Below are positions 28,245 to 59,744 of a stretch of 64,000 bases of DNA, piece after piece. The notes under the pieces were generated by a model. The model was not told the origin of the DNA and made no database searches. It saw only the letters and a list, made by a program, of their open reading frames with translations. The first letter of the stretch is position 1. Every line of letters starts with the position of its first letter. Position numbers and translations under genes: made by a program. The stretch spans positions 20,790,828-20,854,827 of the forward strand of contig NC_091141.1 in NCBI RefSeq assembly GCF_041381155.1, read 5' to 3'. The stretch is from Argopecten irradians. Its lineage: Eukaryota; Mollusca; Bivalvia; Pectinida; Pectinidae.

Positions 28245-28809
28245 TTAGATTTTACTAAGATCATAGGACTGTGTGTCATCCCCTTTGGGTTTTGTGTTGG
28301 ACTCCCCCTCCGTACTGTTTTGCTCTATCTCCATGTTTTCCTCCACACTTTCCTTGTCTCCCCCTGAAACCCCAGACGGATCTCCATTTCCGACTTCCTG
28401 ACTCCTGGAAGGACCCTCCTCCACAACTCCATCAGCTGATTGATTCCACACTCCCGCTTCCTGTGAATCGACTGAAAATTCATTTGAATTTAGATTTGAA
28501 TCATTTACTCTTGATGTCCTTGTTTCCTTATAAACACCCAGCATCTCTTCGTCTTCGTCGGAGGGTTCACTTTCCATGTGCTTTCCTGTCTGCACTTCCC
28601 TAACATAATCTTTAAGATATTTACGTGCACCATCATCCTTAATTGTACCGATCCAGTAGTTCATACAACTCTCAAGGGTATTGGATAGCTCACCAGTCTC
28701 CAACGCCTCTTGTAAAACAAATTCTACAAATGGTTGCTTTAAGTGTTCGTAGCCGAATTCCCCCAGGGACTTGAGAATACGTGTGATTCGTAGGTAGTTA
28801 TGGTATGAA
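28245..28809 (-). CDS. OGFR: OGFR exon 7 (end of OGFr_N domain and acidic tail)
   Basis: The acceptor TTTTTTGTTTTTCAG precedes T TCA TAC CAT. The first residues give SYHNYLRITRILKSLGEFG, the most conserved part of the family, followed by EHLKQPFVEFVLQEALETGE. After about residue 245 the sequence is an E/S/N/G-rich disordered tail. The upstream in-frame Met codon is intronic and is not the start. Confidence 0.93.
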
Positions 28810-37800: not shown

Positions 37801-40800
37801 TTAAATTTCACATACACTATAGGTATTTGATTTTAAAAGTAGCTTGAAATTCATAATACATGACAATATTTTGTAATGATCAGAACTTTATATGAGCCAG
37901 TTTGTTTGAAGTTAATAGTGATCAGAAAAGAGCCCTAAAAGTCTGCATCATTTACTTGTTCTGCACGCAGCCTAAATATCACATCAGCATGTTACCTTCA
38001 TTGAATTTGTTTCAAAAATTCTCCATGGTAATTTTATTTCCTTAGATACATTTGTATAATGAAATCCGAATAAGCCCACAAGTTACAGAATGTGAGAAGC
38101 ATTACTTAAGGTTTTTTTTCTTTTTTTTTTTTCAAAATCCAAATAAAAATAACTTCAAAACACATAACCTATGAGACGTTGATCAATCAGGCACACTGCT
38201 GATTGTGTTCTAAGGGAAATAACTCACTAAAACAGGTGATTGCACAGTCTTCCAAACGTTCTGTTACATATGTAAAATTTTAATAATCTCTGATAAAACT
38301 CTTGGACAAATAATTAATGAGTTGATGAAGCTAAATTAGTTGATAAATGATGTATATTGATTCTGTACTTTGTTAGTTGATAAATGATGTATATTGATGT
38401 CTGTACTATGTTAGTTGTTATGTTAGTTGTTATGATAAATGCTTTATATCAATATATTCTGTACTTTTTCTCTTTACGGATGCATGTGAGACAGAACTTT
38501 TGAGACATAGTGTACATACATTGTACTATCAATGCTAACTTGTCTATTCTGGCCAATAAATGTTCCTAAACTGTTAACTTTCCATAGACAGTATCACAGA
38601 ACTTAAGGAAAGCTTCTTATTAGAAGATGTTTTCCTTGAAGGGCCACAACCTTTCTGAAACCATTTCTGACTTTTAAAATGGGATTGGAGAACGAAATGG
38701 ATAATCTATAGAGTCACAAAAGTTACTAACTTACCGTTAATACTACACTAGCTAAAATGCTAACCAGATACAAACTCAAACCAAATTGTGAACCAGTTAT
38801 CCGGTTGCCCGTTTATTCCACCCTAGTACTAGAGATGATTAGCAGAGTATGTGTCATGATTACCTGAAGATGTGACATGATTACCTGAAGATGTGACATG
38901 ATCATCTGAGGAAGTGACATGATCATCTGAGGATGTGTCATGATTACCTGAGAATGTGACATGATTACCTGAAGATGTGTCATGATTACCTGAGGATGTG
39001 ACATGATTACCTGAGATGTGTCATGATTACCTGAGGATGTGACATGATTACCTGAGGAAGTGACATGATCATCTGAGGATGTGTCATGATTACCTGAGAG
39101 ATGTGACATGATTACCTGAGGATGTGACATGATTACCTGAGGAATGTGACATGATTACCTGAGGATGTGTCATGATTACCTGAGTGACATACGAGATGTG
39201 ACATGATTATCTGAGGATGTGACATGATTACCTGAGGATGTGACATGATTACCTGAGGAAGTGACATGATTACCTGAGGAATGTGACATGATATACCTGA
39301 GGAATGTGTCATGATTACCTGAGAATGTGACATGATTACCTGAGAATGTGACATGATTACCTGAGGATGTGACATGATTACTGAGAGTGCATGATATCTG
39401 AGGATGTGACATGATTACCTGAGGAAGTGACATGATATCTGAGGATGTGTCATGATTACCTGAGAAGTGACATGATCATCTGAGGATGTGTCATGATTAC
39501 CTGAGAATGTGACATGATTACCTGAGGATGTGACATGATTACCTGAGGATGTGACATGATTACCTGAGGATGTGACATGATTACCTGAGAAGTGATACTG
39601 AGATGTGTCATGATTACCTGAGGAATGTGACATGATTACCTGAGGATGTGTCATGATTACCTGAGGATGTGACATGATTACCTGAGGAAGTGACATGATT
39701 ACCTGAGATGTGTCATGATTACCTGAGGATGTGACATGATTACCTGAGGATGTGACATGATTACCTGAAGATGTGACATGATTACCTGAGGAAGTGACAT
39801 GATCATCTGAGGATGTGACATGATTACCTGAGGATGTGACATGATTACCTGAGGATGTGACATGATTACCTGAGGATGTGACATGATCATCTGAGGATGT
39901 GTCATGATTACCTGAGAATGTGACATGATTACCTGAAGATGTGTCATGATTACCTGAGGAAGTGACACGATCATCTGAGGATGTGTCATGATTACCTGAG
40001 AATGTGACATGATTACCTGAGGATGTGTCATGATCATCTGAGGATGTGTCATGATTACCTGAGGATGTGACATGATTACCTGAGGATGTGACATGATTAC
40101 CTGAGGCCATTACCTGAAGATATGACATGATTACCTGAAGATGTGTCATGATTGCCTGAGGAAGTGACACAATCATCTGAGGATGTGTCATGATTACCTG
40201 ACAATGTGACATGATTAACCTGAGGAAGTGACGATCATCTGAGGCCATTACCTGACAATGTGACATGATTACCTGAGGAAGTGACATGATTACCTGAGAA
40301 TGTGACATGATTATCTGAGAATGTGACATGATTTACCTGAGGAAGTGACATGATTACCTGAGGATGTGACATGATTACCTGAGGATGTGACATGATCATC
40401 TGAGGATGTTACATGATTACCTGAAGATGTGTCATGATCATCTGAGGAAGTGACATGATTACCTGAGGAAGTGACATGATTATCTAAGGATGTTACATGA
40501 TTACCTGAAGATGTGTCATGATCATCTGAGGAAGTGACATGATTACCTGAGGAAGTGACACGATCACCTGAGGATGTGTCATGATTACCTGAGGATGTGA
40601 CATGATTACCTGAGGATGTGACATGATTACCTGAGGATGTGACATGATTACCTGAGGATGTGACATGATCATCTGAGGAAGTGTCATGATCATCTGAGGA
40701 AGTGACATGATTACCTGAGGAAGTGACATGATTATCTGAGGATGTGACATGATTACCTGAGGATGTGACATGATCATCTGAGGATGTGTCATGATTACCT

Positions 40801-43800
40801 GAGAATGTGACATGATTACCTGAGGATGTGACATGATTACCTGAGGATGTGACATGATTACCTGAGGAAGTGACATGATTACCTGAGGATGTGTCATGAT
40901 TACCTGAGGATGTGACATGATTACCTGAGGAAGTGACATGATTACCTGAGGATGTGACATGATTACCTGAGGATGTGACATGATTACCTGAGGATGTGAC
41001 ATGATTACCTGAGGATGTGACATGATTACCTGAGGATGTGACATGATTACCTGAAGATGTGACATGATTACCTGAGGATGTGACATGATTACCTGAGGAT
41101 GTGACATGATTACCTGAGGATGTGACATGATTACCTGAGGATGTGACATGATTACCTGAGGATGTGACATGATTACCTGAGGATGTGACATGATTACCTG
41201 AGGATGTGACATGATTACCTGAAAGTGACATGATTACCTGAAGTGACATGATTACCTGAGGATGTGACATGATTACCTGAGGATGTGACATGATTACCTG
41301 AGGATGTGACATGATTACCTGAGGATGTGACATGATTACCTGAGGAGATGTGACATGATTACCTGAGGAATGTGACATGATTACCTGAGGATGTGACATG
41401 ATTACCTGAGGATGTGACATGAATGTGACATGATTACCTGAGGATGTGTCATGATTACCTGAGGATGTGACATGATTACCTGAGGATGTGACATGATTAC
41501 CTGAAGATGTGACATGATTACCTGAGGAAGTGACACGATCATCTGAGGATGTGTCATGATTACCTGAGAATGTGACATGATTACCTGAAGATGTGTCATG
41601 ATAACCTGAGGAAGTGACACGATCATCTGAGGATGTGTCATGATTACCTGAAGATGTGAACCAGTTATCCGGTTGCCCGTTCTAGCACTAGAGATGATTA
41701 TCAGAGTATGTGTTATGATTACCTGAAGATGTGACATGATTACCTGAAGATGTGAGATAATGTGACATGATTACCTGAGGATGTGTCATGATTACCTGAG
41801 GAAGTGACATGATCATCTGAGGATGTGTCATGATTACCTGAGAATGTGACATGATTACCTGAAGATGTGTCATGATTACCTGAGGAAGTGACATGATCAT
41901 CTGAGGATGTGTCATGATTACCTGAGAATGTGACATGATTACCTAAAGATGTGAACCAGTTATCCGGTTGCCCATTCTAGCACTAGAGATGATTTGCAGA
42001 GTATGTGTCATGATTACCTGAAGATGTGACATGATTACCTGATGATGTGACATGATTACCTGATGATGTGACATGATTACCTGAGGAAGTGACACAATCA
42101 TCTGAGGATGTGTCATGATTACCTGAGAATGTGACATGATTACCTGAAGATGTGTCATGATTACCTGAGGAAGTGACACAATCATCTGAGGATGTGTCAT
42201 GATTACCTGAGAATGTGACATGATTACCTAAGGATGTGAACCAGTTATCCGGTTGCCCGTTCTAGCACTAGAGATGATTTGCAGAGTATGTGTCAAGATT
42301 ACCTGAAGATGTGACATGATTACCTGAGGAAGTGACACAATCATCTGAGGATGTGTCATGATTACCTGAGAATGTGACATGATTACCTGAGGATGTGACA
42401 TGATTACCTGAGGAAGTGACATGATTACCCTGAGGAAGTGGACATGATTACTGAGGAATGTGTCATGATTACCTGAGGATGTGACATGATTACCTGAAGA
42501 TGTGACATAATTACCTGAGAATGTGTCATGATTACCTGATGATGTGACATGATTACCTGAAGATGTGACATAATGTGACATGATTACCTGAAGATGTGTC
42601 ATGATTACCTGAGGAAGTGACACAATCATCTGAGGATGTGTCATGATTACCTGAGAATGTGACATGATTACCTGAAGATGTGTCATGATTACCTGAGGAA
42701 GTGACACAATCATCTGAGGATGTGTCATGATTACCTGAGAATGTGTCATGATTACCTGAGGATGTGACATGATTACCTGAGGATGTGACATGATTACCTG
42801 ATGATGTGACATGATTACCTGAGGATGTGCTATGATTACCTGAGGAAGTGACATGATAACTTTAGTAATAAGATTACCTGTTAAGATGTCTGAATCTTGA
42901 CTTCCAGTCCTCCCCCCTTTTGATGATGCCTGTCTCTTTACTTGTCAGCTCCATTCCGTAAAAGTGCAGCATCATCTCGTAAGACTTGAGTACACGTGCA
43001 TGGGCTTCCTTATCTGCCATGATTTTCTAAATAATTGAACAGAAATGCCTTAAAACTGTGTCCACATGTTGAGCTCAACAGTACTCCTCGAGAAATGCTA
43101 AATTAAAACTATCCTGATGGATACTTAGTAAGGGTGGCCATGTGTACTGCTATCCTGATGGATACTTAGTATGGGTGGCCATGTGTACTGCTATCCTGAT
43201 GGATACTTAGTATGGGTGGCCATGTGTACTGCTATCCTGATGGATACTTAGTATGGGTGGCCATGTGTACCACTATCCTGATGGATACTTAGTATGGGTG
43301 GCCATGTGTACTGCTATCCTGATGGATACTTAGTATGGGTGGCCATGTGTACTGCTATCCTGATGGATACTTAGTATGGGTGGCCATGTGTACCACTATC
43401 CTGATGGATACTTAGTATGGGTGGCCATGTGTACTGCTATCCTGATGGATACTTAGTATGGGTGGCCATGTGTACCACTATCCTGATGGATACTTAGTAT
43501 GGGTGGCCATGTGTACTGCTATCCTGATGGATACTTAGTATGGGTGGCCATGTGTACTGCTATCCTGATGGATACTTAGTATGGGTGGCCATGTGTACTG
43601 CTATCCTGATGGATACTTAGTATGGGTGGCCATGTGTACTGCTATCCTGATGGATACTTAGTATGGGTGGCCATGTGTACCACTATCCTGATGGATACTT
43701 AGTATGGGTGGCCATGTGTACTGCTATCCTGATGGATACTTAGTATGGGTGGCCATGTGTACCGCTATCCTGATGGATATGTGGTATGGGTGGCCATGTG

Positions 43801-46800
43801 TACCACTATCCTGATGGATACTCAGTATGGGTGGCCATGTGTACCACTATCCTGATGGACACTTTGTATGGGTGGTCATGTGTACAACTATCCTGATGGA
43901 AACTTAGTACGGGTGGCCATGTGTACTACTATCCTGATGGATACTTAGTATGGGTGGCCATGTGTACCACTATCCTGATGGATACTTAGTATGGGTGGCC
44001 ATGTGTACTGCTATCCTGATGGATACTTAGTATGGGTGACCATGTGTACTGCTATCCTGATGGATACTTAGTATGGGTGGCCATGTGTACTGCTATCCTG
44101 ATGGATACTTAGTATGGGTGACCATGTATACTGCTATCCTGATGGATACTTAGTATGGGTGGTCATGTGTACTGCTATCCTGATGGATACTTAGTATGGG
44201 TGGCCATGTGTACCACTATCCTGATGGATACTTAGTATGGGTGGCCATGTGTACTGCTATCCTGATGGATACTTAGTATGGGTGGCCATGTGTACTGCTA
44301 TCCTGATGGATACTTAGTATGGGTGGCCATGTGTACTGCTATCCTGATGGATACTTAGTATGGGTGGCCATGTGTACTGCTATCCTGATGGATACTTAGT
44401 ATGGGTGGCCATGTGTACCACTATCCTGATGGATACTTAGTATGGGTGGCCATGTGTACTGCTATCCTGATGGATACTTAGTATGGGTGGCCATGTGTAC
44501 TGATATCCTGATGGATACTTAGTATGGGTGACCATGTGTACTGCTATCCTGATGGATACTTAGTATGGGTGGCCATGTGTACTGCTATCCTGATGGATAC
44601 TTAGTATGGGTGGCCATGTGTACCACTATCCTGATGGATACTTAGTATGGGTGGCCATGTGTACTGCTATCCTGATGGATACTTAGTATGGGTGGCCATG
44701 TGTACTGCTATCCTGATGGATACTTAGTATGGGTGGCCATGTGTACTGCTATCCTGATGGATACTTAGTATGGGTGGCCATGTGTACTGCTATCCTGATG
44801 GATCCATGTGTACCTACTGATGGATACTTAGTATGGGTGGCCATGTGTACTGCTATCCTGATGGATACTTAGTATGGGTGGCCATGTGTACCTACTATCC
44901 TGATGGATACTTTAGTATGGGTGGCCATGTGTACTGCTATCCTGATGGATACTTAGTATGGGTGGCCATGTGTACTGCTATCCTGATGGATACTTAGTAT
45001 GGGTGGCCATGTGTACTGCTATCCTGATGGATACTTAGTATGGGTGGCCATGTGTACCACTATCCTGATGGATACTTAGTATGGGTGGCCATGTGTACTG
45101 CTATCCTGATGGATACTTAGTATGGGTGGCCATGTGTACTGCTATCCTGATGGATACTTAGTATGGGTGGCCATGTGTACTGCTATCCTGATGGATACTT
45201 AGTATGGGTGGCCATGTGTACCACTATCCTGATGGATACTTAGTATGGGTGGCCATGTGTACTGCTATCCTGATGGTTACTTAATATGGGTGGCCCTGTT
45301 GTATGAAGGGAAATTTTATGTTATTTTAAATTGTAAATTTACTGAACAAAGATCTACATTAGGTTCGGATAATGTTAAGAATGAAACAGTACAATACCAT
45401 ACCGGTATCAATGAAATGATACTGATATTCAAGGATACCCATACTGATCGATACTTTTGAAGAAATACCCTGGTTGTCTAACATAGTACATAAAGATTTT
45501 ATTTGTTATAACGTTTAAATTACACAAGAAAGTATACAAGTTGTGCAGACAATGTATTTTTTTTATTATAAAACAGAATTGCAAGAATCAAGACCATGCA
45601 TGTTCTTACACACAGTGCTTTTTCTTCTTCATTTTGTTACTTTTACTTGCGGATCTTCTTAAAGAATAATGTCTTTATTTTTTTCAAACAGAGATAAGAG
45701 TACTTTTTAAAATAGGTATGCAGCAGTGTTTTATTAAAACGGGTAACAATACCTTTGAATAGTGAGTATGATATCCAAACCTAACGTATAAGTTCTATAA
45801 TCACTACTTGTGAAATGCAGCAGGTCATCACAAATTATCCTCTACTAAAGGTTACAGTAACACCTTATGTTGCTGATTTACCTACCTTGATTTCATGAAG
45901 CTGTAGTTCTTGTGAGTAAAAGTTCATGCCTGATTCTCTGATGGGAAATAACCTACACAGGAATAAAATGAAATGGAGTTACTTCCCTTTGAACATACAG
46001 TTACAATTCAGCCCTTACCTGAAGCATGATTTAAACGAACTTCAGGAACTACATTAGATAATGTTTATTAGTGGTATTTATGGAGATTGGGAAAAATAGC
46101 ATTTAATCCATCTTTTGTTTGAATAGGAGATCTTTACATAATTATTTAGAGAAATGACGGAAACAGAGTAAATGATTTCATATAATTATATATGATAGCC
46201 TTCGCCAGGAATCAAACTCGGGACATACATTGTTTGACATACTTATAGTCTTATGTACGGCCAATCAACCTATAGAAGTTCTCCAAGAGGTACACTGTGG
46301 CAAATGTTCACCAGGGTTTCATAATGATGAAACAACGCTTCACTATATCATATTTATGGTAAAACAGCAGCCACATCCAAGGAACATTGAGCAGAGTCAT
46401 AGGAACAACCTTACAGATATAGATATACAGTAAAACATGTTTGTAATGAACACGCTTACAACAAATACATGGTTATAACGTTGTAATTTTCATTCCCGTA
46501 ATGATTCCTATTGTATGTTAACAATATGTGTATAGCAAATTATGTTTATAACCAAGTTATTTCTAAGGTCCCCAGAGGTTCGTTATTAATGTTTTTTATT
46601 GTATAAATATAATTACCATTGAATGTATCCATGGTGAGTTTCCAGCAGTCTAAAATTTCCCCACCAATCCTCATGGATGTTTTTGATGTAATCTCCTATA
46701 AATGAAAAAGAGTCAGAATACAGAATGGAAGAGGACCTGTTATCAGGCAGGTTTTGGTTTTGTATGTAGACAAAGCCAAATACATGTATACATATACATT

Positions 46801-49800
46801 TATATGTGTCTACAAATAAAAGCAACAAAACTGTGGTTTCACACTAAACTTTACACTGACTTTAACTCAGTCAATTAAGCATTGATGTCACTATTTTTCT
46901 AATTTTATCGGGGTATGAAAAAAAAATGTTTGCAAACTGTGTGAATCCGCTATGCGGATTCTCACAAAAGTTTGTGAACTATTTTTTTTTCATAACCCGA
47001 TAAAATTAAAAAAATAGTGACATCAATACTTATGATTAATTTTATACTCTATTTGATGAAATGAAGTATGTGTAAATGTAACATTATAGTGGTTTTTCAA
47101 GGGATTCTTTTTTCAGAATCAATACACAACTTCAATGTCTCTATTGTGACATCACGCTAACGTCGCGGTTTCGCACCATTCTCGGATTTTTTTTCCATAG
47201 TGGTATGCAAAAAAAATATTGGCCAATCAGAAACCCAGATTTGGTATGAAAACAAAGAAAAATTAATTATTTATAATTAATATCAAAATCTAGGTCAAAA
47301 TATATTTAAGTCTTTGAATTAACTCAAAACACATGTACAGTACAGTAACTAAAAAATACATAATTTTCAAAATTTGAACAGTTGTTGTTCAACATTTTCT
47401 GAAAACTTTTTTTTTCCCAGCAAATTTTATTGACAATGATTTTGAATGCCAAATGAATTGAACAACAAGCAAAGCCTATATAAGTTCACTCTCTGTTTTC
47501 TGTCATTCTATAACCTAGGAATCAATTTAAATTAAACCCCACATGAATGCTTAAATGTTTATGATACAAATGAGCACAACTGGGCTCAGTTTCACAAACA
47601 TTCCTTCAATTAAAAGCATTACAGATTCTAAGGAAAGTTCCTTAACTTAAGATTTTTCCTTAACTTCTGAGTAATGCTTTCCTCTAGGGAATTTTAAGTG
47701 AAGTAATGTTTGTAAAACTGGGCCCTGGTGGGCTTTGACGACAGGAGTTAGACATCAGTGAACAATTCTAGTTATGTTGATGTTTTAGTTGTAGCCTTAC
47801 CGTCTGGGTGGGACTTGATCTTCCCGGTATAAAACATTAGGTTCTCTGTTAGCTCCGGATGGTCTTTTTTCCCCTGTAACAAGGTGTATTGAAAGGTTAA
47901 AACAGATATTCACCACACTTTTTAAAATCGTCCATTATGTATATTTATCACATTGAAGGACACCCAATATTTATTGATCTATCCAACAAAACAAATATCC
48001 ATCACTGATTTCTATCATAGGTTCTAAATTCATTGACGTTTAGAACCGACTTTCACACAGGTAGGTATGATTTATATAAATACAATGTATAATAACTTCA
48101 TGTATTTCTAATCATTACCTCACTGTCGCAGTGAAAGCTGAATTGGTGTAGAATCAGATTTCATAACACTGTGTCACAACTGAAATTTCTGTGTTGTCAA
48201 ACTGCATAATCCAATTAAATGAAATCTTTCAAACCTTCTGTTTCAATTATTATCCTTTTCTGTAAAGTTTAAAAGATTTTACTTACTAGATACTCTTTTC
48301 TGTAAAGTTTAAATAATCATACTTACTAGATTTCCTTTCCTGTAAAGCTTATACAGATAATACTTACTGGATTTCCTTTTCTGTATAGTTTATACAGATA
48401 ATACTTACTGGATTTCCTTTTCTGTATAGTTTATACAGACAATACTTACTGGATTTCCTTTTCTGTATAGTTTATACAGATAATACTTACTGGATTTCCT
48501 TTTCTGTATAGTTTATACAGATAATACTTACTGGATTTCCTTTCCTGTATAGTTTATACAGATAATACTTACTGGATATCCTTTCCTGTATAGTTTATAC
48601 AGATAATACTTACTGGATATCCTTTCCTGTATAGTTTATACAGATAATACTTACTGGATATCCTTTCCTGTTTATAGTTTATACAGATATACTTATGGAT
48701 TCCTCTGTATAGTTTATACAGATAATACTTACTGGATATCCTTTCCTGTATAGTTTATACAGATAATACTTACTGGATATCCTTTTCTGTATAGTTTATA
48801 CAGATAATACTTACTGGATTTCCTTTCCTGTATAGTTTATACAGATAATACTTACTGGATTTCCTTTTCTGTATAGTTTATACAGATAATACTTACTGGA
48901 TATCCTTTCCTGTATAGTTTATACAGATAATACTTACTGGATATCCTTTCCTGTATAGTTTATACAGATAATACTTACTGGATATCCTTTCCTGTATAGT
49001 TTATACAGATAATACTTACTGGATATCCTTTTCTGTATAGTTTATACAGATAATACTTACTGGATATCCTTTCCTGTATAGTTTATACAGATAATACTTA
49101 CTGGATTTCCTTTCTGTATAGTTTATACAGATAATACTTACTGGATATCCTTTTCTGTATAGTTTATACAGATAATACTTACTGGATTTCCTTTTCTGTA
49201 TAGTTTATACAGATAATACTTACTGGATATCCTTTTCTGTATAGTTTATACAGATAATACTTACTGGATTTCCTTTTCCTGTATAGTTTATACAGATAAT
49301 ACTTACTGGATATCCTTTTCTGTATAGTTTATACAGAGTAATACTTACTGGATTTCCTTTCCTGTATAGTTTATACAGATAATACTTACTGGATATCCTT
49401 TCCTGTATAGTTTATACAGATAATACTTACTGGATTTCCTTTTCTGTATAGTTTATACAGATAATACTTACTGGATATCCTTTTCTGTATAGTTTATACA
49501 GATAATACTTACTGGATATCCTTTCCTGTATAGTTTATACAGATAATACTTACTGGATTTCCTTTCCTGTATAGTTTATACAGATAATACTTACTGGATA
49601 TCCTTTCCTGTATAGTTTATACAGATAATACTTACTGGATTTCCTTTCCTGTATAGTTTATACAGATAATACTTACTGGATATCCTTTTCCTGTATAGTT
49701 TATACAGATAATACTTACTGGATATCTTTTCTGTATAGTTTATACAGATAATACTTACTGGATATCCTTTTCTGTATAGTTTATACAGATAATACTTACT

Positions 49801-52800
49801 GGATATCCTTTCCTGTATAGTTTATACAGATAATACTTACTGGATTTCCTTTCCTGTATAGTTTATACAGATAATACTTACTGGATATCCTTTCCTGTAT
49901 AGTTTATACAGATAATACTTACTGGATATCCTTTCCTGTATAGTTTATACAGATAATACTTACTGGATATCCTTTTCTGTATAGTTTATACAGATAATAC
50001 TTACTGGATATCCTTTCCTGTATAGTTTATACAGATAATACTTACTGGATATCCTTTTCTGTATAGTTTATACAGATAATACTTACTGGATATCCTTTTC
50101 TGTATAGTTTATACAGATAATACTTACTGGATATCCTTTCCTGTATAGTTTATACAGATAATACTTACTGGATATCCTTTCCTGTATAGTTTATACAGAT
50201 AATACTTACTGGATATCCTTTTTCTGTATAGTTTATACAGATAATACTTACTGGATATCCTTTCCTGTATAGTTTATACAGATAATACTTACTGGATATC
50301 CTTTCCTGTATAGTTTATACAGATAATACTTACTTGATATCCTTTCCTGTAAATTATACAGATAATACTTACTGGATATCCTTCCCTGTATAGTTTATAC
50401 AGATAATACTTACTGGATATCCTTTTCTGTATAGTTTATACAGATAATACTTACTGGATATCCTTTTCTGTATAGTTTATACAGATAATACTTACTGGAT
50501 ATCCTTTCCTGTATAGTTTATACAGATAATACTTACTGGATATCCTTTCCTGTATAGTTTATACAGATAATACTTACTGGATATCCTTTTCTGTATAGTT
50601 TATACAGATAATACTTACTGGATATCCTTTTCTGTATAGTTTATACAGATAATACTTACTGGATATCCTTTCCTGTATAGTTTATACAGATAATACTTAC
50701 TGGATATCCTTTCCTGTATAGTTTATACAGATAATACTTACTGGATATCCTTTCCTGTATAGTTTATACAGATAATACTTACTGGATATCCTTTCCTGTA
50801 TAGTTTATACAGATAATACTTACTGGATATCCTTTCCTGTATAGTTTATACAGATAATACTTACTGGATATCCTTTTCTGTATAGTTTATACAGATAAAC
50901 TTACTTTTACTAGTTTATACAGAAATATTACTGGATATCCTTTTTCTGTATAGTTTATACAGATAATACTTACTGGATATCTTTTCTGTATAGTTTATAC
51001 AGATAATACTTACTGGATATCCTTTCTGTATAGTTTTATACAGATAATACTTACTGGATATCCTTTCCTGTATAGTTTATACAGATAATACTTACTGGAT
51101 ATCCTTTCCTGTATAGTTTATACAGATAATACTTACTGGATTTCCTTTTCTGTATAGTTTATACAGATAATACTTACTGGATATCCTTTCTGTATAGTTT
51201 ATACAGATAATACTTACTGGATATCCTTTCCTGTATAGTTTTATACAGATAATACTTACTGGATATCCTTTCCTGTATAGTTTATACAGATAATACTTAC
51301 TGGATATCCTTTCCTGTATAGTTTATACAGATAATACTTACTGGATATCCTTTCCTGTATAGTTTATACAGATAATACTTACTGGATATCCTTTTCCTGT
51401 ATAGTTTATACAGATAATACTTACTGGATATCCTTTCCTGTATAGTTTATACAGATAATACTTACTGGATATCCTTCCCTGTATAGTTTATACAGATAAT
51501 ACTTACTGGATATCCTTTTCTGTATAGTTTATACAGATAATACTTACTGGATATCCTTTCCTGTATAGTTTATACAGATAATACTTACTGGATATCCTTT
51601 CCTGTATAGTTTATACAGATAATACTTACTGGATATCCTTTCCTGTATAGTTTATACAGATAATACTTACTGGATATCCTTTCCTGTATAGTTTATACAG
51701 ATAATACTTACTGGATTTCCTTTTCTGTATAGTTTATACAGATAATACTTACTGGATTTCCTTTTCTGTATAGTTTATACAGATAATACTTACTGGATTT
51801 CCTTTCCTGTATAGTTTATACAGATAATACTTACTGGATATCCTTTCCTGTATAGTTTTTATACAGATAATACTTACTGGATATCCTTTCCTGTATATTG
51901 TTTATACAGATAATACTTACTGGATATCCTTTCCTGTATAGTTTATACAGATAATACTTACTGGATATCCTTTCCTGTATAGTTTATACAGATAATACTT
52001 ACTGGATATCCTTTTCTGTATAGTTTATACAGATAATACTTACTGGATATCCTTTCCTGTATAGTTTTATACAGATAATACTTACTGGATATCCTTTCCT
52101 GTATAGTTTATACAGATAATACTTACTGGATATCCTTTCCTGTATAGTTTATACAGATAATACTTACTGGATTTCCTTTCCTGTATAGTTTATACAGATA
52201 ATACTTACTGGATTATCCTTTCCTGTATAGTTTATACAGATATATACTTACTGGATATCCTTTTCTGTATAGTTTTTATACAGATAATACTTACTGGATA
52301 TCCTTTTCTGTATAGTTTATACAGATAATACTTACTGGATATCCTTTCCTGTATAGTTTATACAGATAATACTTACTGGATATCCTTTCCTGTATAGTTT
52401 ATACAGATAATACTTACTGGATTTCCTTTCCTGTATAGTTTATACAGATAATACTTACTGGATATCCTTCCTGTATAGTTTATACAGTTAATACTTACTG
52501 GATTTCCTTTCTGTTTAGTTTATACAGATAATACTTACTGGATATCCTTTTCCTGTATAGTTTATACAGATAATACTTACTGGATATCCTTTCCTGTATA
52601 GTTTATACAGATAATACTTACTGGATTTCCTTTCCTGTATAGTTTATACAGATAATACTTACTGGATATCCTTTTCTGTATAGTTTATATACAGATAATA
52701 CTTACTGGATATCCTTTCCTGTATAGTTTATACAGAAATGTATTACTGGATAATCCTTTCTGTATAGTTTATACAGATAATACTTACTGGATATCCTTTT

Positions 52801-55800
52801 CTGTATAGTTTATACAGATAATACTTACTGGATATCCTTTTCTGTATAGTTTATTACAGATAATACTTACTGGACAATCCTTTCCTGTATAGTTTATACA
52901 GATAATACTTACTGGATATCCTTTTCTGTATAGTTTTATACAATATACTGTTATCCTTTCTGTATAGTTTTATCCGAGATAATTCCTGGATATCCTTTCC
53001 TGTATAGTTTATACAGATAATACTTACTGGATATCCTTTCCTGTATAGTTTATTACAGATAATACTTACTTACTGGATTTCCTTTCCTGTATAGTTTATA
53101 CAGATAATACTTTACTGGATATACTGGATTTCCTTTCCTGTATAGTTTATACAGATAATACTTACTGGATATCCTTTTCTGTATAGTTTATACAGATAAT
53201 ACTTACTGGATATCCTTTCTGTATAGTTTATACAGATAATACTTTTACTGGATATCCTTTCCTGTATAGTTTTTATACAGATAATACTTACTGGATATCC
53301 TTTCCTGTATAGTTTATACAGATAATACTTACTGGATATCCTTTCCTGTATAGTTTATACAGATAATACTTACTGGATTTCCTTTTCTGTATAGTTTATA
53401 CAGATAATACTTACTGGATATCCTTTTCTGTATAGTTTATACAGATAATACTTACTGGATTTCCTTTTCTGTATAGTTTATACAGATAATTACTTACTGG
53501 ATATCCTTTTTTGTATAGTTTATACAGATAATACTTACTGGATTTCCTTTCCTGTATAGTTTATACAGATAATACTTACTGGATTATCCTTTCCTGTATA
53601 GTTTATACAGATAATACTTACTGGATATCCTTTCCTGTATAGTTTATACAGATAATACTTACTGGATTTCCTTTCCTGTATAGTTTATACAGATAATACT
53701 TACTGGATCCTTCCTTTCTGTATAGTTTATACAGATAATACTTACTGGATTTCCTTTTCTGTATAGTTTATACAGATAATACTTACTGGATATCCTTTTC
53801 TGTATAGTTTATACAGATAATACTACTTACTGGATTTCTTTTCTGTCCTGTATAGTTTTATACAGATAATACTTACTGGATATCCTTTTCTGTATAGTTT
53901 ATACAGATAATACTTACTGGATATCCTTTCCTGTATAGTTTTATACAGATTAATACTTACTGGATATCCTTTTCTGTATAGTTTATACAGATAATACTTA
54001 ATACTTACTGTTTATAAGTATATCCTTTCCTGTATAGTTTATACAGATAATACTTACTGGATATCCTTTTCTGTTTATACAGATAATACTTACTGGATAT
54101 CCTTTCCTGTATAGTTTTATACAGATAATACTTACTGGATTTCCTTTCCTGTATAGTTTATACAGATAATACTTACTGGATATCCTTTTCCTGTATTTTT
54201 ATACAGATAATACTTACTGGATATTTTCCTTTCTGTATAGTTTATTACAGATAATACTTACTGGATATCCTTTTCCTGTTTAGTTTATACAGATAATACT
54301 TACTGGATTTCCTTTCCTGTATAGTTTATACAGATAAGATAATACTTACTGGATTTCCTTTCCTGTATAGTTTATACAGATAATACTTACTACTGTTTAT
54401 ACAGATAATACTTACTGGATTTCCTTTTCTGTATAGTTTATACAGATAATACTTACTGGATATCCTTTTCTGTATAGTTTATACAGATAATACTTACTGG
54501 ATATCTTTTCTGTATAGTTTTTATACAGATAATACTTACTGGATATCCTTTTCTGTATAGTTTATACAGATAATACTTACTGGATATCCTTTCTGTATAT
54601 ATTTTTATACAGATAATACTTACTGGATATCCTTTCCTGTATAGTTTATACAGATAATACTTACTGGATTTCCTTTTCTGTATAGTTTATACAGATAATA
54701 TTTACTGGATATCCTTTTTTGTATAGTTTATACAGATAATACTTACTGGATTTCCTTTCCTGTATAGTTTATACAGATAATACTTACTGGATTTCCTTTC
54801 CTGTATAGTTTATACAGATAATACTTACTGGATATCCTTTTCTGTATAGTTTATACAGATAATACTTACTGGATATCCTTTTCTGTATAGTTTATACAGA
54901 TAATACTTACTGGATATCCTTTCCTGTATAGTTTATACAGATAATACTTACTGGATATCCTTTTCTGTATAGTTTATACAGATAATACTTACTGGATTTC
55001 CTTTTCTGTATAGTTTATACAGATAATACTTACTGGATATCCTTTTCTGTATAGTTTATACAGATAATACTTACTGGATATCCTTTCCTGTATAGTTTAT
55101 ACAGATAATACTTACTGGATATCCTTTCCTGTATAGTTTATACAGATAATACTTACTGGATATCCTTTTCCTGTATAGTTTATACAGATAATACTTACTG
55201 GATATCCTTTTCTGTATAGTTTATACAGATAATACTTACTGGATATCCTTTTCTGTATAGTTTATACAGATAATACTTACTGGATATCCTTTTCTGTATA
55301 GTTTATACAGATAATACTTACTGGATATCCTTTTCTGTATAGTTTATACAGATAATACTTACTGGATTTCCTTTCCTGTATAGTTTATACAGATAATACT
55401 TACTGGATATCCTTTCCTGTATAGTTTATACAGTATAATACTTACTGGATATCCTTTTCTGTATAGTTTATACAGATAATACTTACTGGATTTCCCTGTA
55501 TAGTTTATACAGATAATACTTACTGGATATCCTTTCCTGTATAGTTTATACAGATAATACTTACTGGATTTCCTTTCCTGTATAGTTTATACAGATAATA
55601 CTTACTGGATATCCTTTCCTGTATAGTTTATACAGATAATACTTACTGGATATCCTTTTCCTGTATAGTTTATACAGATAATACTTACTGGATATCCTTT
55701 TCTGTATAGTTTATACAGATAATACTTACTGGATTTCCTTTTCTGTATAGTTTATACAGATAATACTTACTGGATATCCTTTCCTGTATAGTTTATACAG

Positions 55801-58800
55801 ATAATACTTACTGGATTTCCTTTTCCTGTATAGTTTATACAAATAATACTTACTGGATATCCTTTTCTGTATAGTTTATACAGATAATACTTACTGGATA
55901 TCCTTTTCTGTATAGTTTATACAGATAATACTTACTGGATATCCTTTCCTGTATAGTTTATACAAATAATACTTACTGGATATCCTTTTCTGTATAGTTT
56001 TATACAGATAATACTTACTGGATATCCTTTCTGTATAGTTTATACAGATAATACTTACTGGATATCCTTTCCTGTATAGTTTATACAGATAATACTTTAC
56101 TGGATATCCTTTTCTGTATAGTTTATACAGATAATACTTACTGGATATCCCTGTATAGTTTATACAGATAATCTTACTGGATATCCTTTCCTGTATAGTT
56201 TATACAGATAATACTTACTGGATATCCTTTTCTGTATAGTTTATACAGATAATACTTACTTATCCTTTTCTGTATAGTTTATACAGATAATACTTACTGG
56301 ATATCCTTTCTGTATAGTTTATACAGATAATACTTACTGGATATCCTTTCCTGTATAGTTTATACAGATAATACTTACTGGATATCCTTTTCCTGTATAG
56401 TTTATACAGATAATACTTACTGGATATCCTTTCTGTATAGTTTATACAGATAATACTTACTGGATATCCTTTCCTGTATAGTTTATACAGATAATACTTA
56501 CTGGATATCCTTTCCTGTATAGTTTATACAGATAATACTTACTGGATATCCTTTTCTGTATAGTTTATACAGATAATACTTACTGGATATCCTTTTCTGT
56601 ATAGTTTATACTACTTACTGTATAGTTTATACAGATAATACTTACTGGATATCCTTTCCTGTATAGTTTATACAGATAATACTTACTGGATATCCTTTCC
56701 TGTATAGTTTATACAGATAATACTTACTGGATATCCTTTCCTGTATAGTTTATACAGATAATACTTACTGGATATCCTTTTCTGTATAGTTTATACAGAT
56801 AATACTTACTGGATATCCTTTCCTGTATAGTTTATACAGATAATACTTACTGGATATCCTTTTCTGTATAGTTTATACAGATAATACTTACTGGATTTCC
56901 TTTCCTGTATAGTTTATACAGATAAGGACACCCTAATTATACAGATAATACTTACTGGATATCCTTTCCTGTATAGTTTATACAGATAATACTTACTGGA
57001 TATCCTTTCCTGTATAGTTTATACAGATAATACTTACTGGATATCCTTTCCTGTATAGTTTATACAGATAATACTTACTGGATATCCTTTCCTGTATAGT
57101 TTATACAGATAATACTTACTGGATATCCTTTCCTGTATGTATAGTTTATACAGATAATACTTACTGGATATCCTTTTCTGTATAGTTTATACAGATAATA
57201 CTTACTGGATATCCTTTCCTGTATAGTTTATACAGATAATACTTACTGGATATCCTTTCCTGTATAGTTTATACAGATAATACTTACTGGATATCCTTTC
57301 CTGTATAGTTTATACAGATAATACTTACTGGATATCCTTTCCTGTATAGTTTATACAGATAATACTTACTGGATATCCTTTCCTGTATAGTTTATACAGA
57401 TAATACTTACTGGATATCCTTTCCTGTATAGTTTATACAGATAATACTTACTGGATATCCTTTCCTGTATAGTTTATACAGATAATACTTACTGGATATC
57501 CTTTCCTGTATAGTTTATACAGATAATACTTACTGGATATCCTTTTCTGTATAGTTTATACAGATAATACTTACTGGATATCCTTTCCTGTATAGTTTAT
57601 ACAGATAATACTTACTGGATATCCTTTCCTGTATAGTTTATACAGATAATACTTACTGGATATCCTTTCCTGTATAGTTTATACAGATAATACTTACTGG
57701 ATTTCCTTTCCTGTATAGTTTATACAGATAATACTTACTGGATATCCTTTCCTGTATAGTTTATACAGATAATACTTACTGGATATCCTTTTCTGTATAG
57801 TTTATACAGATAATACTTACTGGATATCCTTTTCTGTATAGTTTATACAGATAATACTTACTGGATATCCTTTCCTGTATAGTTTATACAGATAATACTT
57901 ACTGGATATCCTTTTCTGTATAGTTTATACAGATAATACTTACTGGATATCCTTTCCTGTATAGTTTATACAGATAATACTTACTGGATATCCTTTCCTG
58001 TATAGTTTATACAGATAATACTTACTGGATATCCTTTCCTGTATAGTTTATACAGATAATACTTACTGGATATCCTTTCCTGTATAGTTTATACAGATAA
58101 TACTTACTGGATATCCTTTTCTGTATAGTTTATACAGATAATACTTACTGGATATCCTTTCCTGTATAGTTTATACAGATAATACTTACTGGATATCCTT
58201 TCCTGTATAGTTTATACAGATAATACTTACTGGATATCCTTTCCTGTATAGTTTATACAGATAATACTTACTGGATATCCTTTTCTGTACTGCTCTGTAT
58301 CCTTATCACTCCATTTCCTGAAGAACGATGCACCAAACATGTGTCTATTTCCCTGAAATAAACAGAGATGTTATAAATTTACTGCTACATGATTATCAAC
58401 TTATACATAGGTACAATGTTGTTAGAATTAAAGTAAAGAACGATTATTGGCTATCAACACCAGCAGCAAGAATATAGAATTAACTGGGAGATAAGATTTG
58501 TTACACAGAGAAGGGGAGGGGGGGTGGAACCAAATATATCACATAAATATTACATTGCAGTGTAACAGGAGAGGAGAAAATATAGCGGCCAGACCAGGAT
58601 TCGAACTCAGGACCCCCCAAACACTAGCTGAGTGCTCTACCGACTGAGCTACCTGGTCACCGATGATCGACCCAGTCCAATCCCGCTACACTCCTCCTTC
58701 CTTTCTGGAAGTCTTCGCCCTCAAAGACATACAAGACCCTTCCAAACACCACCACCGTGGATTATTTAGTTGGGCGCCAATTTTGTAACAGGGGAGGAGA

Positions 58801-59744
58801 AAATGTAGCGGTTAGACCAGGATGTGAACAGGAGTAGTTAAACATTTTTATCATTTAAAAAAAATAATTATAACACTTTGAAAATTAAAAGCTATGGAAT
58901 GCAGTCAAAATATCCATCAAGCAAAGCAATCTCTCCCTGGGAGAGATTGCAAGCAAAGCAATCTCTCCCTGGGAGAGATTGCAAGCAAAGATGAGCACAA
59001 GGAACCATGACATCACATCACGTAAATAAATGGAATGAAATCATAGGATTCACATATGCGGCACTCCAGGCCTTGCATGGACACGGAGAAATCCAAATCT
59101 TTGAGTTTATGTTAGACAATTATTATATCATACACTTTTATAGTTTTAAGTACATCTTTTTATTTCTAAAATATGTCTTTTACATAAATAGAAAATAAGT
59201 AAAATAAGTAGGCCCAGCGCTAAATTGCTCTTCCCATGCTGTGCATGATTCATATTAATTATATCTCATAAATAGATTACGTCTTTTAAGTATTTTCATT
59301 TCAAAATATTTTATTAACGAATACAAGATATACATACTTTTAAGTATTTCACCATGTAATGGTAATTATGCTTCAACAATACAATTTATGTTACATTGTT
59401 TGTACAGTGTATATTGTACGTTCAAACAATTTTGCAGTTTTGAAAAGCATAATATGATATACATTATTTTAGAATTATTGTTATTTCAGACGTCTATAAA
59501 ATATTAAAACTCGCCTGTATGCTGTCTATCGCTTGCAGTAGTTATGGCTATAAGACAAACAACTTTCGGTTTGACGGATCGATAAACGATGAGATATCGA
59601 TGTACAATGTGTATTTACCCCACGTTTTCTGTGAGTTGGCGAATCTTCATCACTCATGTTGTTGCCCATTTTTGTCTGTTTGTCACGGTATGAGACTGCT
59701 TCTTCAGTCGAGGAAGTCTTATTTCTTTTGCTAGACTTTGACAT
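28245..59744 (-). CDS. OGFR: Opioid growth factor receptor homologue, seven-exon gene model
   Basis: Joining seven exons (59744-59619, 58352-58272, 47873-47801, 46695-46617, 45952-45886, 43026-42878, 28809-28245) gives 1140 nt, 379 residues plus stop, all with GT/AG junctions and matching phases. The conserved OGFr_N region covers about residues 47-245. Key family motifs are HHGYIQWLFP at 114-123, KSYEMMLHFYGMEL in exon 6, and LRITRILKSLGEFG at 198-211. The vertebrate protein is a nuclear-envelope-associated receptor for met-enkephalin that restrains cell proliferation; whether a mollusc protein binds opioid peptide is unknown. The C-terminal third is low-complexity, acidic and Ser/Asn-rich, without the 20-residue repeats of the human protein. 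Introns 2, 5 and 6 are dominated by tandem arrays. Confidence 0.92.
28810..32224 (-). other. 3' part of OGFR intron 6
   Basis: AT-rich intron. A diverged direct repeat of about 130 bp occurs two or three times between about 29216 and 29600 (shared TTCAGAAAGAAATGT and GGTGTCTA). One MITE lies at 31067-31249. No exon is recognised on either strand. Confidence 0.5.
31067..31249. mobile_element. MITE, 183 bp
   Basis: TACCGTATTCAACCCAATAA with GCGCCC at the left is mirrored by GGGCGC and TTATTGGGTCGAATACGGTA at the right. It has an A/T-rich interior and no ORF. Confidence 0.8.
32225..35470. mobile_element. Non-autonomous element containing a ~158-bp tandem core
   Basis: It begins with ACAAGAGGCCCAGATGGC and TTGTATCGCTCACC, a start I associate with abundant mollusc repeats. 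It has a diverged core copy near 32310, about 550 bp of unique sequence, then about 15 tandem copies (32985-35395). It ends in a GACGAACGG / GGACGGATGG tail with GTCGCACCATGACAAAA. The layout is like the element at 2346-3110. No coding capacity beyond repeat artefacts. Confidence 0.6.
32985..35395. repeat. Tandem core, ~158-bp unit, ~15 copies
   Basis: Each unit has TTACCTCTATTTCCCCTATT, GCCCCTCCTGCCCC, TCAGAGCCAAA, CTCTGTTCCCCTTCC, GCCAAATTTGGTTACATTCC and ATGCAGAACTCTATGAC. It is more G/C-rich than its surroundings. A 16-base G run begins at 33372 inside one copy. The unit length is close to the ~160-bp bivalve satellites of the BIV160 type; homology was not tested. Confidence 0.9.
35471..38785 (-). 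other. Middle part of OGFR intron 6
   Basis: No exon seen. Contents are a 12-bp-stem hairpin at 35843-35894 (CTGTTACAGTGA and its complement), another element start near 36617 (AAAGACCCAGTGGGCCTG) without a visible core, and a ~38-bp tandem triplet at 38336-38469 (TTAGTTGATAAATGATG). Confidence 0.45.
38850..42866 (-). repeat. Minisatellite, 21-bp unit, ~190 copies, at the OGFR exon 6 donor
   Basis: On the OGFR sense strand the unit reads TCACATCCTCAG|GTAATCATG, so each copy joins an acceptor-like CAG to a donor-like GTAATC. The true exon 6 donor, AACAG|GTAATC at 42877, lies about 11 bp beyond the array edge. Three stretches of single-copy flank (GAACCAGTTATCCGGTTGCC) are embedded at about 41656, 41952 and 42236, giving a higher-order period of about 285-295 bp. 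The 7-codon period makes long spurious VIMSHPQ-repeat ORFs. Confidence 0.95.
42878..43026 (-). CDS. OGFR: OGFR exon 6
   Basis: The acceptor TTATTTAG precedes AAA ATC ATG GCA, and the exon ends CTTAACAG|GTAATC in phase 2. It encodes 49 residues, including RVLKSYEMMLHFYGMELTSK and GEDWKSRFRHLN, matching the helical OGFr_N segment just before the LRITRILKSLGE motif. Confidence 0.92.
43095..45285 (-). repeat. Minisatellite, 41-bp unit, ~53 copies, in OGFR intron 5
   Basis: Plus-strand units read CTATCCTGATGGATACTTAG and TATGGGTGGCCATGTGTAC followed by TG or CA. TG (TACTG) and CA (TACCA) variants intermix. On the sense strand each unit has CATACTAAG followed about 10 bp later by CATCAG, resembling a branch point and acceptor, and the array ends about 70-85 bp before the exon 6 acceptor. 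Confidence 0.95.
45290..45885 (-). other. 5' part of OGFR intron 5
   Basis: Single-copy AT-rich DNA between the exon 5 donor and the array. Nothing else is recognised. Confidence 0.4.
45886..45952 (-). CDS. OGFR: OGFR exon 5
   Basis: The acceptor CCTGTGTAG precedes G TTA TTT CCC, completing the Trp codon. The exon encodes LFPIRESGMNFYSQELQLHE plus IK, the segment following HHGYIQW in OGFr_N. It ends ATCAAG|GTAGGT in phase 0. Confidence 0.92.
46190..46225 (-). repeat. tRNA-like box B relic, possible SINE fragment
   Basis: The minus strand reads GTCCCGAGTTTGATTCCTGG, related to the motif at 16395-16455. It is too short and degenerate to be a tRNA gene. Confidence 0.3.
46617..46695 (-). CDS. 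OGFR: OGFR exon 4
   Basis: The acceptor ATTTATAG precedes GA GAT TAC, completing Gly from exon 3. The exon encodes DYIKNIHEDWWGNFRLLETH and HGYIQ, with the Trp codon split as TG|G. The HHGYIQWLFP signature is characteristic of OGFR. The donor is GTAATT. Confidence 0.93.
46881..47027. mobile_element. Near-perfect hairpin MITE, ~147 bp, in OGFR intron 3
   Basis: ATTGATGTCACTATTTTT with TAATTTTATCGGG on the left is mirrored by CCCGATAAAATTA with AAAAATAGTGACATCAAT on the right. The arms meet at GAATCCGC-TA-TGCGGATTC, so the element is almost wholly palindromic. Confidence 0.85.
47121..47250. mobile_element. MITE fragment, same family as 12897-13138
   Basis: Shares AATACACAAC, TCAATGTCT, GTGACATCACGCTAACG, GCACCATTCTCGG and ATTGGCCAATCA with the copy in the Asp-rich gene intron. 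The right inverted end is not evident, so it is probably truncated. Confidence 0.6.
47251..47800 (-). other. 5' part of OGFR intron 3
   Basis: AT-rich intronic DNA between the MITE fragment and exon 3. No additional exon is recognised. Confidence 0.4.
47801..47873 (-). CDS. OGFR: OGFR exon 3
   Basis: The acceptor CTTGTTACAG precedes GGG AAA AAA GAC. The exon encodes GKKDHPELTENLMFYTGKIK plus SHPD and ends GACG|GTAAGG in phase 1. NLMFYTGKIKSHPDG aligns with the NLSFYRNEIRFLPNG stretch that I recall from the vertebrate family. Confidence 0.9.
48256..58271 (-). repeat. Minisatellite, 41-bp unit, ~240 copies, 10 kb, starting at the OGFR exon 2 donor
   Basis: On the OGFR sense strand the unit is GTAAGTATTATCTGTATAAA then CTATACAGAAAAGGATATCCA, with A/G and C/T variants. 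The exon 2 end and donor at 58271-58272, AAAAGGATATCCA|GTAAGTATTATC, is itself the first unit, so the last ~17 exon bases and first ~24 intron bases have been amplified. Each unit has two palindromes: GGATATCC, and CTGTATA-AAC-TATACAG. Copies at 48256-48345 are decayed and indel-bearing copies cluster at about 52200-54700. It fills nearly all of intron 2. Confidence 0.97.
58272..58352 (-). CDS. OGFR: OGFR exon 2
   Basis: The acceptor TTTATTTCAG precedes GGA AAT AGA. The exon encodes 27 residues including MFGASFFRKWSDKDTEQYRK and GYP, corresponding to the family's N-terminal R-x-Y-P region. It ends GGATATCCA|GTAAGT in phase 0; this junction is repeated throughout intron 2. Confidence 0.88.
58561..58830 (-). 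mobile_element. tRNA-derived SINE-like element
   Basis: On the minus strand 58660-58587 reads GTGACCAGGTAGCTCAGTCG, then GTAGAGC (box A) and GAGTTCGAATCC (box B), a tRNA-like head. The anticodon and T stems are mispaired, so it is not a functional tRNA. A second partial copy of its end (GAGGAGAAAATGTAGCGG) lies at about 58794-58820, and TGTAACAG occurs at both 58561 and 58785. Confidence 0.6.
58926..58982. repeat. Two tandem copies of a 25-bp palindrome
   Basis: GCAATCTCTCCC-T-GGGAGAGATTGC occurs at 58926-58950 and again at 58958-58982, separated by AAGCAAA. The copies are identical, with 12-bp arms and a one-base centre. Confidence 0.9.
59619..59744 (-). CDS. OGFR: OGFR exon 1 (start codon)
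   Basis: The first in-frame ATG at 59744-59742 gives MSKSSKRNKTSSTEEAVSYR, 42 residues in all, ending HRKRG before GTAAAT in phase 0, which matches exon 2. The basic clusters SKRNK and HRKRG could act as nuclear localisation signals (inference). This exon is less conserved than the rest and is placed by phase, donor and composition. Confidence 0.7.

Follow-up and report, generated by a model that had tools for sequence, protein, structure and literature searches.

How a 10-kb minisatellite comes to stand directly against the end of a coding exon, and which of its many identical 5' splice sites is then used, is the question raised by a 64,000-nucleotide stretch of the genome of the bay scallop, Argopecten irradians (assembly GCF_041381155.1, contig NC_091141.1, positions 20,790,828 to 20,854,827; hereafter the window). 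The window holds on its minus strand a gene for an opioid growth factor receptor (OGFR)-like protein, in which seven exons were read, and intron 2 of this gene consists almost entirely of a 41-bp tandem repeat, here called array M. We consider it very probable that array M arose as a minisatellite from the exon 2/intron 2 junction, that its first donor defines the exon while the copies behind it grow as passive intron, and that it is one member of a class of such arrays.

Array M and the junction of exon 2

Wrap-around alignment resolved array M into 245 full units and one partial unit, in line with the result of Tandem Repeats Finder (TRF; Table 1) and with the figure of about 240 copies given in an earlier reading of the letters alone (the sequence-only reading). 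In the direction of the gene, each unit comprises the 18-nt tail of exon 2, TACAG(A/G)AAAGGATATCCA, and the first 23 nt of intron 2, GTAAGTATTATCTGTATAAACTA; the actual exon tail is identical to the unit at 17 of 18 nucleotides, when the commoner G is taken at the A/G column. Unit 1 is the exon 2/intron 2 junction itself (58272/58271), where the exon runs directly into the array. The minus strand of the array contains 235 copies of AGTAAGT, 229 of GTAAGTAT, 215 of CCAGTAAGTATTATC, and 246 of ACAG, which agrees with the claim of the sequence-only reading that hundreds of equal donors stand in a row with the authentic one first; beyond the array, the window holds three further copies of GTAAGTAT. 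AGTAAGT was kept in 234 of the 245 units and lost in 11. The 12 exon-proximal units showed no differences outside two common variant columns. A 123-bp higher-order repeat proposed by TRF was rejected, unit-to-unit identity being flat over lags of 1 to 15. Small indels were frequent in the units at about 52,750–56,200 of the window, which could be assembly noise.

The predicted product of the host gene, 379 amino acids (aa) long, carries an OGFr_N domain (Pfam, 4e-69), matches the NCBI protein "opioid growth factor receptor-like protein 1 [Argopecten irradians]" at 100% identity over 379 aa, and aligns along 100% of the query with a Pecten maximus protein at 65% identity. By domain and orthology, the gene is assigned to the OGFR/OGFRL1 type, and the name OGFR given in the sequence-only reading can be kept in the form OGFR-like. 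The array that it had located is real, while the end that it assigned takes in exon 2, and the gene lies on the minus strand. The NCBI protein corresponds to use of the first donor for the exon 2–exon 3 junction and has no insert. In intron 1, a tRNA-Thr-like sequence with the anticodon AGT, perhaps the head of a short interspersed element, was noticed at 58585–58658 of the window on the minus strand.

The tail of exon 2 encodes YRKGYP (pattern YR.GYP), which is conserved from bivalves to Acanthamoeba. In 20 aligned rows, namely the scallop protein and 19 relatives chosen among the 120 matches listed, Y64, R65, Y68, and P69 were invariant, and G67 was conserved in at least 90%. Because the tail is conserved as far as Acanthamoeba, the exon is older than the array and seeded it. 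Coding exon 2 alone aligned to the unit with a score of 31, against a maximum of 24 among 2000 random non-array segments. The exact unit occurred 91 times in the 845.8-Mb assembly, every time inside array M, and had no match in viral contigs; copies elsewhere, such as a dispersed satellite or a transposon-derived repeat would leave, were not found for the exact unit, diverged copies not having been searched for. Judging from its sequence, array M is born from its exon's own splice site, as the sequence-only reading had proposed.

The array would have started with a tandem duplication of the 18-nt exon end, the donor, and 23 nt of intron. Slippage between short matches such as TACAG, which is found both in the exon and 41 bp further on, in the intron, may have caused it. 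Duplications across the exon end would be tolerated, the exon still being defined by its first donor, and since the exon tail is coding and keeps that donor, the later copies would have become intronic and could multiply unhindered, through unequal exchange or slippage, the array then expanding as passive intron.

Table 1. Coordinates in the window of array M, the OGFR-like gene, and two further arrays in its introns
Feature	Position	Strand	Remarks
Array M, 41-bp minisatellite	48251..58289	-	245 complete units plus a partial unit; 235 AGTAAGT donors; TRF: period 41, 244.3 copies, 92% matches
Authentic exon 2 donor, CCA/GTAAGTAT, first intron base	58271	-	first donor of array M
Distal degenerate units of array M	48251..48376	-	up to 8 differences
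OGFR-like exon 1, coding part	59619..59744	-	read from the window
OGFR-like exon 2, GNRHMFGASFFRKWSDKDTEQYRKGYP	58272..58352	-	81 nt, phase 0; final 18 nt form the exonic portion of unit 1
OGFR-like intron 2	47874..58271	-	10,398 nt, nearly all array M
OGFR-like exon 3, GKKDHPELTENLMFYTGKIKSHPDG	47801..47873	-	last codon split with exon 4
OGFR-like exon 4	46617..46695	-	
OGFR-like exon 5	45886..45952	-	
OGFR-like exon 6	42878..43026	-	donor CAG/GTAATC
OGFR-like exon 7	28245..28809	-	including stop codon
Array K, 21-bp unit, OGFR intron 6	38835..42857	-	136 copies of CAGGTAATC; junction origin not proven
Array L, 41 bp, OGFR intron 5	43109-45299		no donor, no junction homology

Donor arrays in the genome and in the window

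The whole genome was scanned for three identical donors at minisatellite-like spacing (triples), and each motif was compared with its reversed form. Triples of CAGGTAAGT numbered 2119 against 59 reversed, those of AAGGTGAGT 808 against 20, those of CAGGTAAGTA 731 against 37, and those of CAGGTAAGTT 264 against 8. Single CAGGTAAGTT sites, a 10-mer, numbered 5964 against 1653 (3.6-fold), and the triples per site were about ninefold higher than for the reversed form. An unrelated control motif, TCAGATAGG, yielded 763 triples and its reversed form 399; since triple matches clump by array and the control reached such a number, counts of arrays weigh more. For CAGGTAAGTT, the first 16% of the genome alone held eight arrays, and the reversed motif has no more than eight genome-wide (P=0.0017).

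The upstream ends of 15 donor-motif arrays, that is, each separate array among the matches listed for the four motifs, were then read, exons being judged by eye. Ten of the 15 start on an exon and have the donor of that exon as unit 1. Four of these exons have family or structure matches, namely those of a mitofusin (Pfam, 4.7e-9), a guanylate cyclase (Pfam, 8.7e-7), and a ryanodine receptor (RIH domain, Pfam, 1.5e-8), and a Na/H exchanger 6-like exon taken up below. At two control-motif arrays, no exon was seen at the three of four ends that were read. Array M is thereby placed as one member of a class, ten other arrays likewise starting at the end of an exon, as far as their sequence can be read. 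The guanylate cyclase array (C1:5148435, locus L015) has a 48-bp unit that is in frame and open for two units, with a stop in the third, and splicing at its donor 2 or 3 would lengthen the protein by 16-residue repeats. At another start (C2:42627190, locus L042), TTTTCTTGCATTTACCTCAG is followed directly by GTAAGTT, an arrangement that resembles a zero-length exon (recursive splice site).

The acceptor side was compared in the same genome scan with two motifs, and no enrichment of acceptor-like triples over the reversed forms was observed (TTTTGCAGG, 22 vs 143; TTTTACAGG, 596 vs 482); single TTTTGCAGG sites show no excess either (7399 vs 8107), which makes the motif a weak stand-in for acceptors. 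When the downstream ends of 12 acceptor-motif arrays were read by eye (all five of TTTTGCAGG and seven of TTTTACAGG among the matches listed), three were junction-born, one of them at an ABC-transporter-like exon, and a fourth, at C1:2.62M, adjoins an acceptor with no exon within its unit. Junction-born arrays were thus more frequent at donors (10/15) than at acceptors (3/12; one-sided Fisher p=0.038). The order of transcription may underlie this contrast, as the authentic donor would be transcribed first in its array and the authentic acceptor last. Acceptor-born arrays were noted at C3:55570095 (L059), C2:68767231 (L054), and C7:41383210 (L051); their units include exon heads, and the authentic acceptor closes each array.

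Within the window, array K, in intron 6 of the same gene, is the other array for which a junction origin is suggested. Its CAGGTAATC is identical over positions -3 to +6 to the exon 6 donor, which lies 20 nt upstream of the array, and its similarity to the exon 6 junction reached p=0.0115 when 20 nt of intron were included and p=0.46 with the exon alone. Array K has about 196 units, of which 136 carry CAGGTAATC and 19 CAGATGATC, the donor being lost in many units; exact dimers of its unit number 27 in the genome, all within the array. Arrays C, D, and J have donor-like motifs and no junction homology, and junction origin was likewise rejected for arrays L and N, only the donor side being examined for N. 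When six intronic arrays of the window were taken together, sense-strand donors were enriched (Fisher p=0.0008; p=0.002 without M, p=0.012 without K and M), whereas antisense donors were not (p=0.70); this test was devised once M and K had been seen and omits the seventh array, N, which is short, lies at the end of the window, and has a donor score of 2.1.

Two other repeats of the window deserve mention. A 39-bp array on the plus strand (11033–12813) carries ATG/GTGAGTAC donors, with 35 sites scoring at least 7 in about 44 units, and none of its 39 windows diverges less than the donor window; the array is intronic to a gene for an acidic, dibasic-rich protein at about 9.7–16.3 kb (by eye). 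A tandem repeat of 157–158 bp at 32969–35393 also occurs at the unrelated loci L033, L036, and L043 and is a dispersed satellite.

These counts bear on a rival explanation, which we regard as possible and rather unlikely, namely that 5' splice sites are hot spots of minisatellite birth, through transcription-linked breaks, R-loops, or pausing, so that a mutational bias and not only tolerance would be at work. The excess of CAGGTAAGTT triples per site, the excess of CAGGTAAGTA, CAGGTAAGT, and AAGGTGAGT triples over their reversed forms, and the enrichment of sense donors alone in the six window arrays are all as such a bias would leave them; however, the matches clump by array, the two control counts (763 and 399) vary widely, and tolerance alone could yield the same pattern. 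We would tentatively go one step beyond the single locus, with somewhat less than even confidence, and suggest that exon ends with their donors are preferred birthplaces of minisatellites in the bay scallop, many genes carrying their own donor in up to about two hundred copies, of which the first is spliced, with introns growing outward from the donor.

Choice among equal donors and the role of the array

The sequence-only reading had described the donor as fully complementary to U1 small nuclear RNA over positions +1 to +8. The pairing holds at those positions, but positions -1 and -2 are mismatched, and because they are left unpaired, the donor is of middling strength. It scored 7.5 with a position weight matrix, against a range of 5.5–10.2 for the six OGFR donors, and its predicted U1 duplex was -7.5 (range, -5.1 to -11.9). 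In the predicted fold of the first 14 donors of array M, 13 were 82–85% unpaired, with no difference in accessibility between the first donor (0.82) and the next 12 (0.82–0.85); for the 14th, where the folded stretch has its edge, the value was 0.57. In 11 junction-born arrays including that of OGFR, the authentic donor was equal to the consensus donor of its array in eight and weaker in three, the consensus donors having been typed by hand and the arrays found through strong motifs, which favours strong consensus donors. Since the authentic donor was never the stronger (11/11), strength would not be the selector. We infer that the first donor is picked by position, through exon definition and the order of transcription, and that about 234 equal decoys are ignored, a choice that fits what the sequence-only reading had suggested. 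The NCBI protein, in which the first donor is used, accords with this. U1 small nuclear ribonucleoprotein is abundant, and a few hundred sites in one gene are little against such a supply; titration of U1 by array M is not supported. The role of array M is most probably none, its growth being that of a passive intron protected by position.

The decoy donors could instead be kept by selection, for instance if U1 bound along a long intron blocks premature polyadenylation (telescripting), an explanation that we hold to be improbable. Retention of the donor in 234 units, the open predicted fold, and the content of intron 2, which holds just four AATAAA and no ATTAAA, would suit it, as would the low divergence of the nine-column donor window in several arrays (rank 1/39 in C, 2/21 in K, 6/41 in M, 10/157 in J, and 23/51 in D). 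Against this, the uniformity of M can be put down to recent homogenisation, many units of K have lost the donor, and the intronic array L has none. Stronger constraint on the donor columns was considered for M itself and set aside, the rank of 6/41 windows not being decisive.

We give still less credence to the view, close to the length-tunable control of the sequence-only reading, that the length of the array regulates splicing of OGFR, later donors or 13-nt pieces leading to a frameshift and decay. Use of donor 2 would indeed add 41 nt and shift the frame, and read-through from exon 2 reaches a stop within two units. The 13-nt microexons envisaged by the sequence-only reading have part of what they would need, ACAG being followed by GTAAGT 13 nt later in 196 cases; the other part is wanting, as no clear pyrimidine tract was seen by eye before ACAG, and the deposited protein has no such insert. 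That a donor-carrying satellite merely landed beside exon 2 is the poorest account of all and is already contradicted by the privacy of exact M units to this locus and by the conserved coding tail inside the unit, the donor-like motifs of arrays C, D, and J, with their lack of junction homology, notwithstanding.

Several points weigh against the reading of array M as a passive, junction-born member of a class. Use of the first donor is read from the sequence and one deposited protein, which may itself be a gene prediction; the slippage step is presumed; and the absence of M units outside the array in the 845.8-Mb assembly applies to exact units, diverged copies not having been searched for. 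Only one of the seven intronic arrays tested in the window, M, is clearly junction-born, and the donor window is among the less divergent in several arrays, so some function may exist. Among the ten exon calls, the Na/H exchanger 6-like exon matched PDB sequences at 1e-5 while its Pfam E of 0.049 fell below the cut-off, and six are recognised by a by-eye acceptor, an open frame, and a shared tail, have no Pfam match, and include one, at C2:15.5M, with no defined acceptor. At five of the 15 starts (C2:42.6M, C2:61.1M, C2:35.1M, C1:58.6M, and C1:67.4M), no exon was seen.

To our knowledge, most experiments on how one 5' splice site is chosen over near-identical ones nearby have used minigenes carrying two or a few of them. 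In the bay scallop, a farmed animal from which RNA is easily obtained, several genes present this situation naturally, with as many as 235 identical donors. If the first donor is used, position or exon definition alone must decide, and each gene with a donor array would test, in nature, the choice of a donor by position. The value of array M lies in the class to which it belongs and in the donor-choice test that this class permits. The arrays also suggest a route of intron lengthening that is harmless to the message and, possibly, a set of hypervariable markers at exon ends.

Related repeats at exon–intron boundaries

Array M may be set beside a variable number tandem repeat (VNTR) of the human CBS gene, each unit of which, as its name is read, holds a donor. 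The CBS VNTR, c.1444_1467+7(16_21), has a 31-bp unit that by its name comprises 24 nt of exon and 7 nt of intron, in 16–21 copies (PMC2630376); it lies at the exon 13/intron 13 boundary (PMC1395315, PMC5188458), and CBS activity is lower at higher copy number (PMC5188458). The unit of array M is likewise a coding exon tail plus a 5' splice site, with the authentic junction as unit 1. The CBS VNTR differs in being a human polymorphism with a reported effect on activity and in having 16–21 copies against 245, whereas array M is known from one assembly.

In human segmental-duplication genes, internal tandem repeats at exon–intron boundaries have been proposed to form new introns (PMC2812944). As this repeat class and the CBS VNTR have already been described, the kind of array is itself known. 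Within the literature searched, no earlier match was found for the size of array M, its species, or the spread over many genes, nor, judging by the titles and abstract openings among the papers listed, any genome-wide class of donor-born minisatellites, most subscription journals lying outside the search. Reports of a fish intron repeat that is not donor-born (PMC3045353), of scallop genomes rich in tandem repeats (PMC10225492), and of worm intronic minisatellites (PMC4039745) are not used as support.

The boundary repeats of the segmental-duplication genes have units of about 30 bp and four repeats on average, and donor-first arrays are not described in the available part of that account. Another human variant, CBS 844ins68, is a duplicated intron 7/exon 8 junction that is spliced to normal mRNA (PMC2630376); unlike array M, it is on the acceptor side by position (the source says 'splice donor sites'), has one extra copy, and favours the distal site. 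Finally, introns have been described as arising when a sequence carrying splice signals is duplicated in tandem and the duplication is absorbed by splicing (PMC4974935); that process makes a new intron, whereas array M would be the growth of an existing one.

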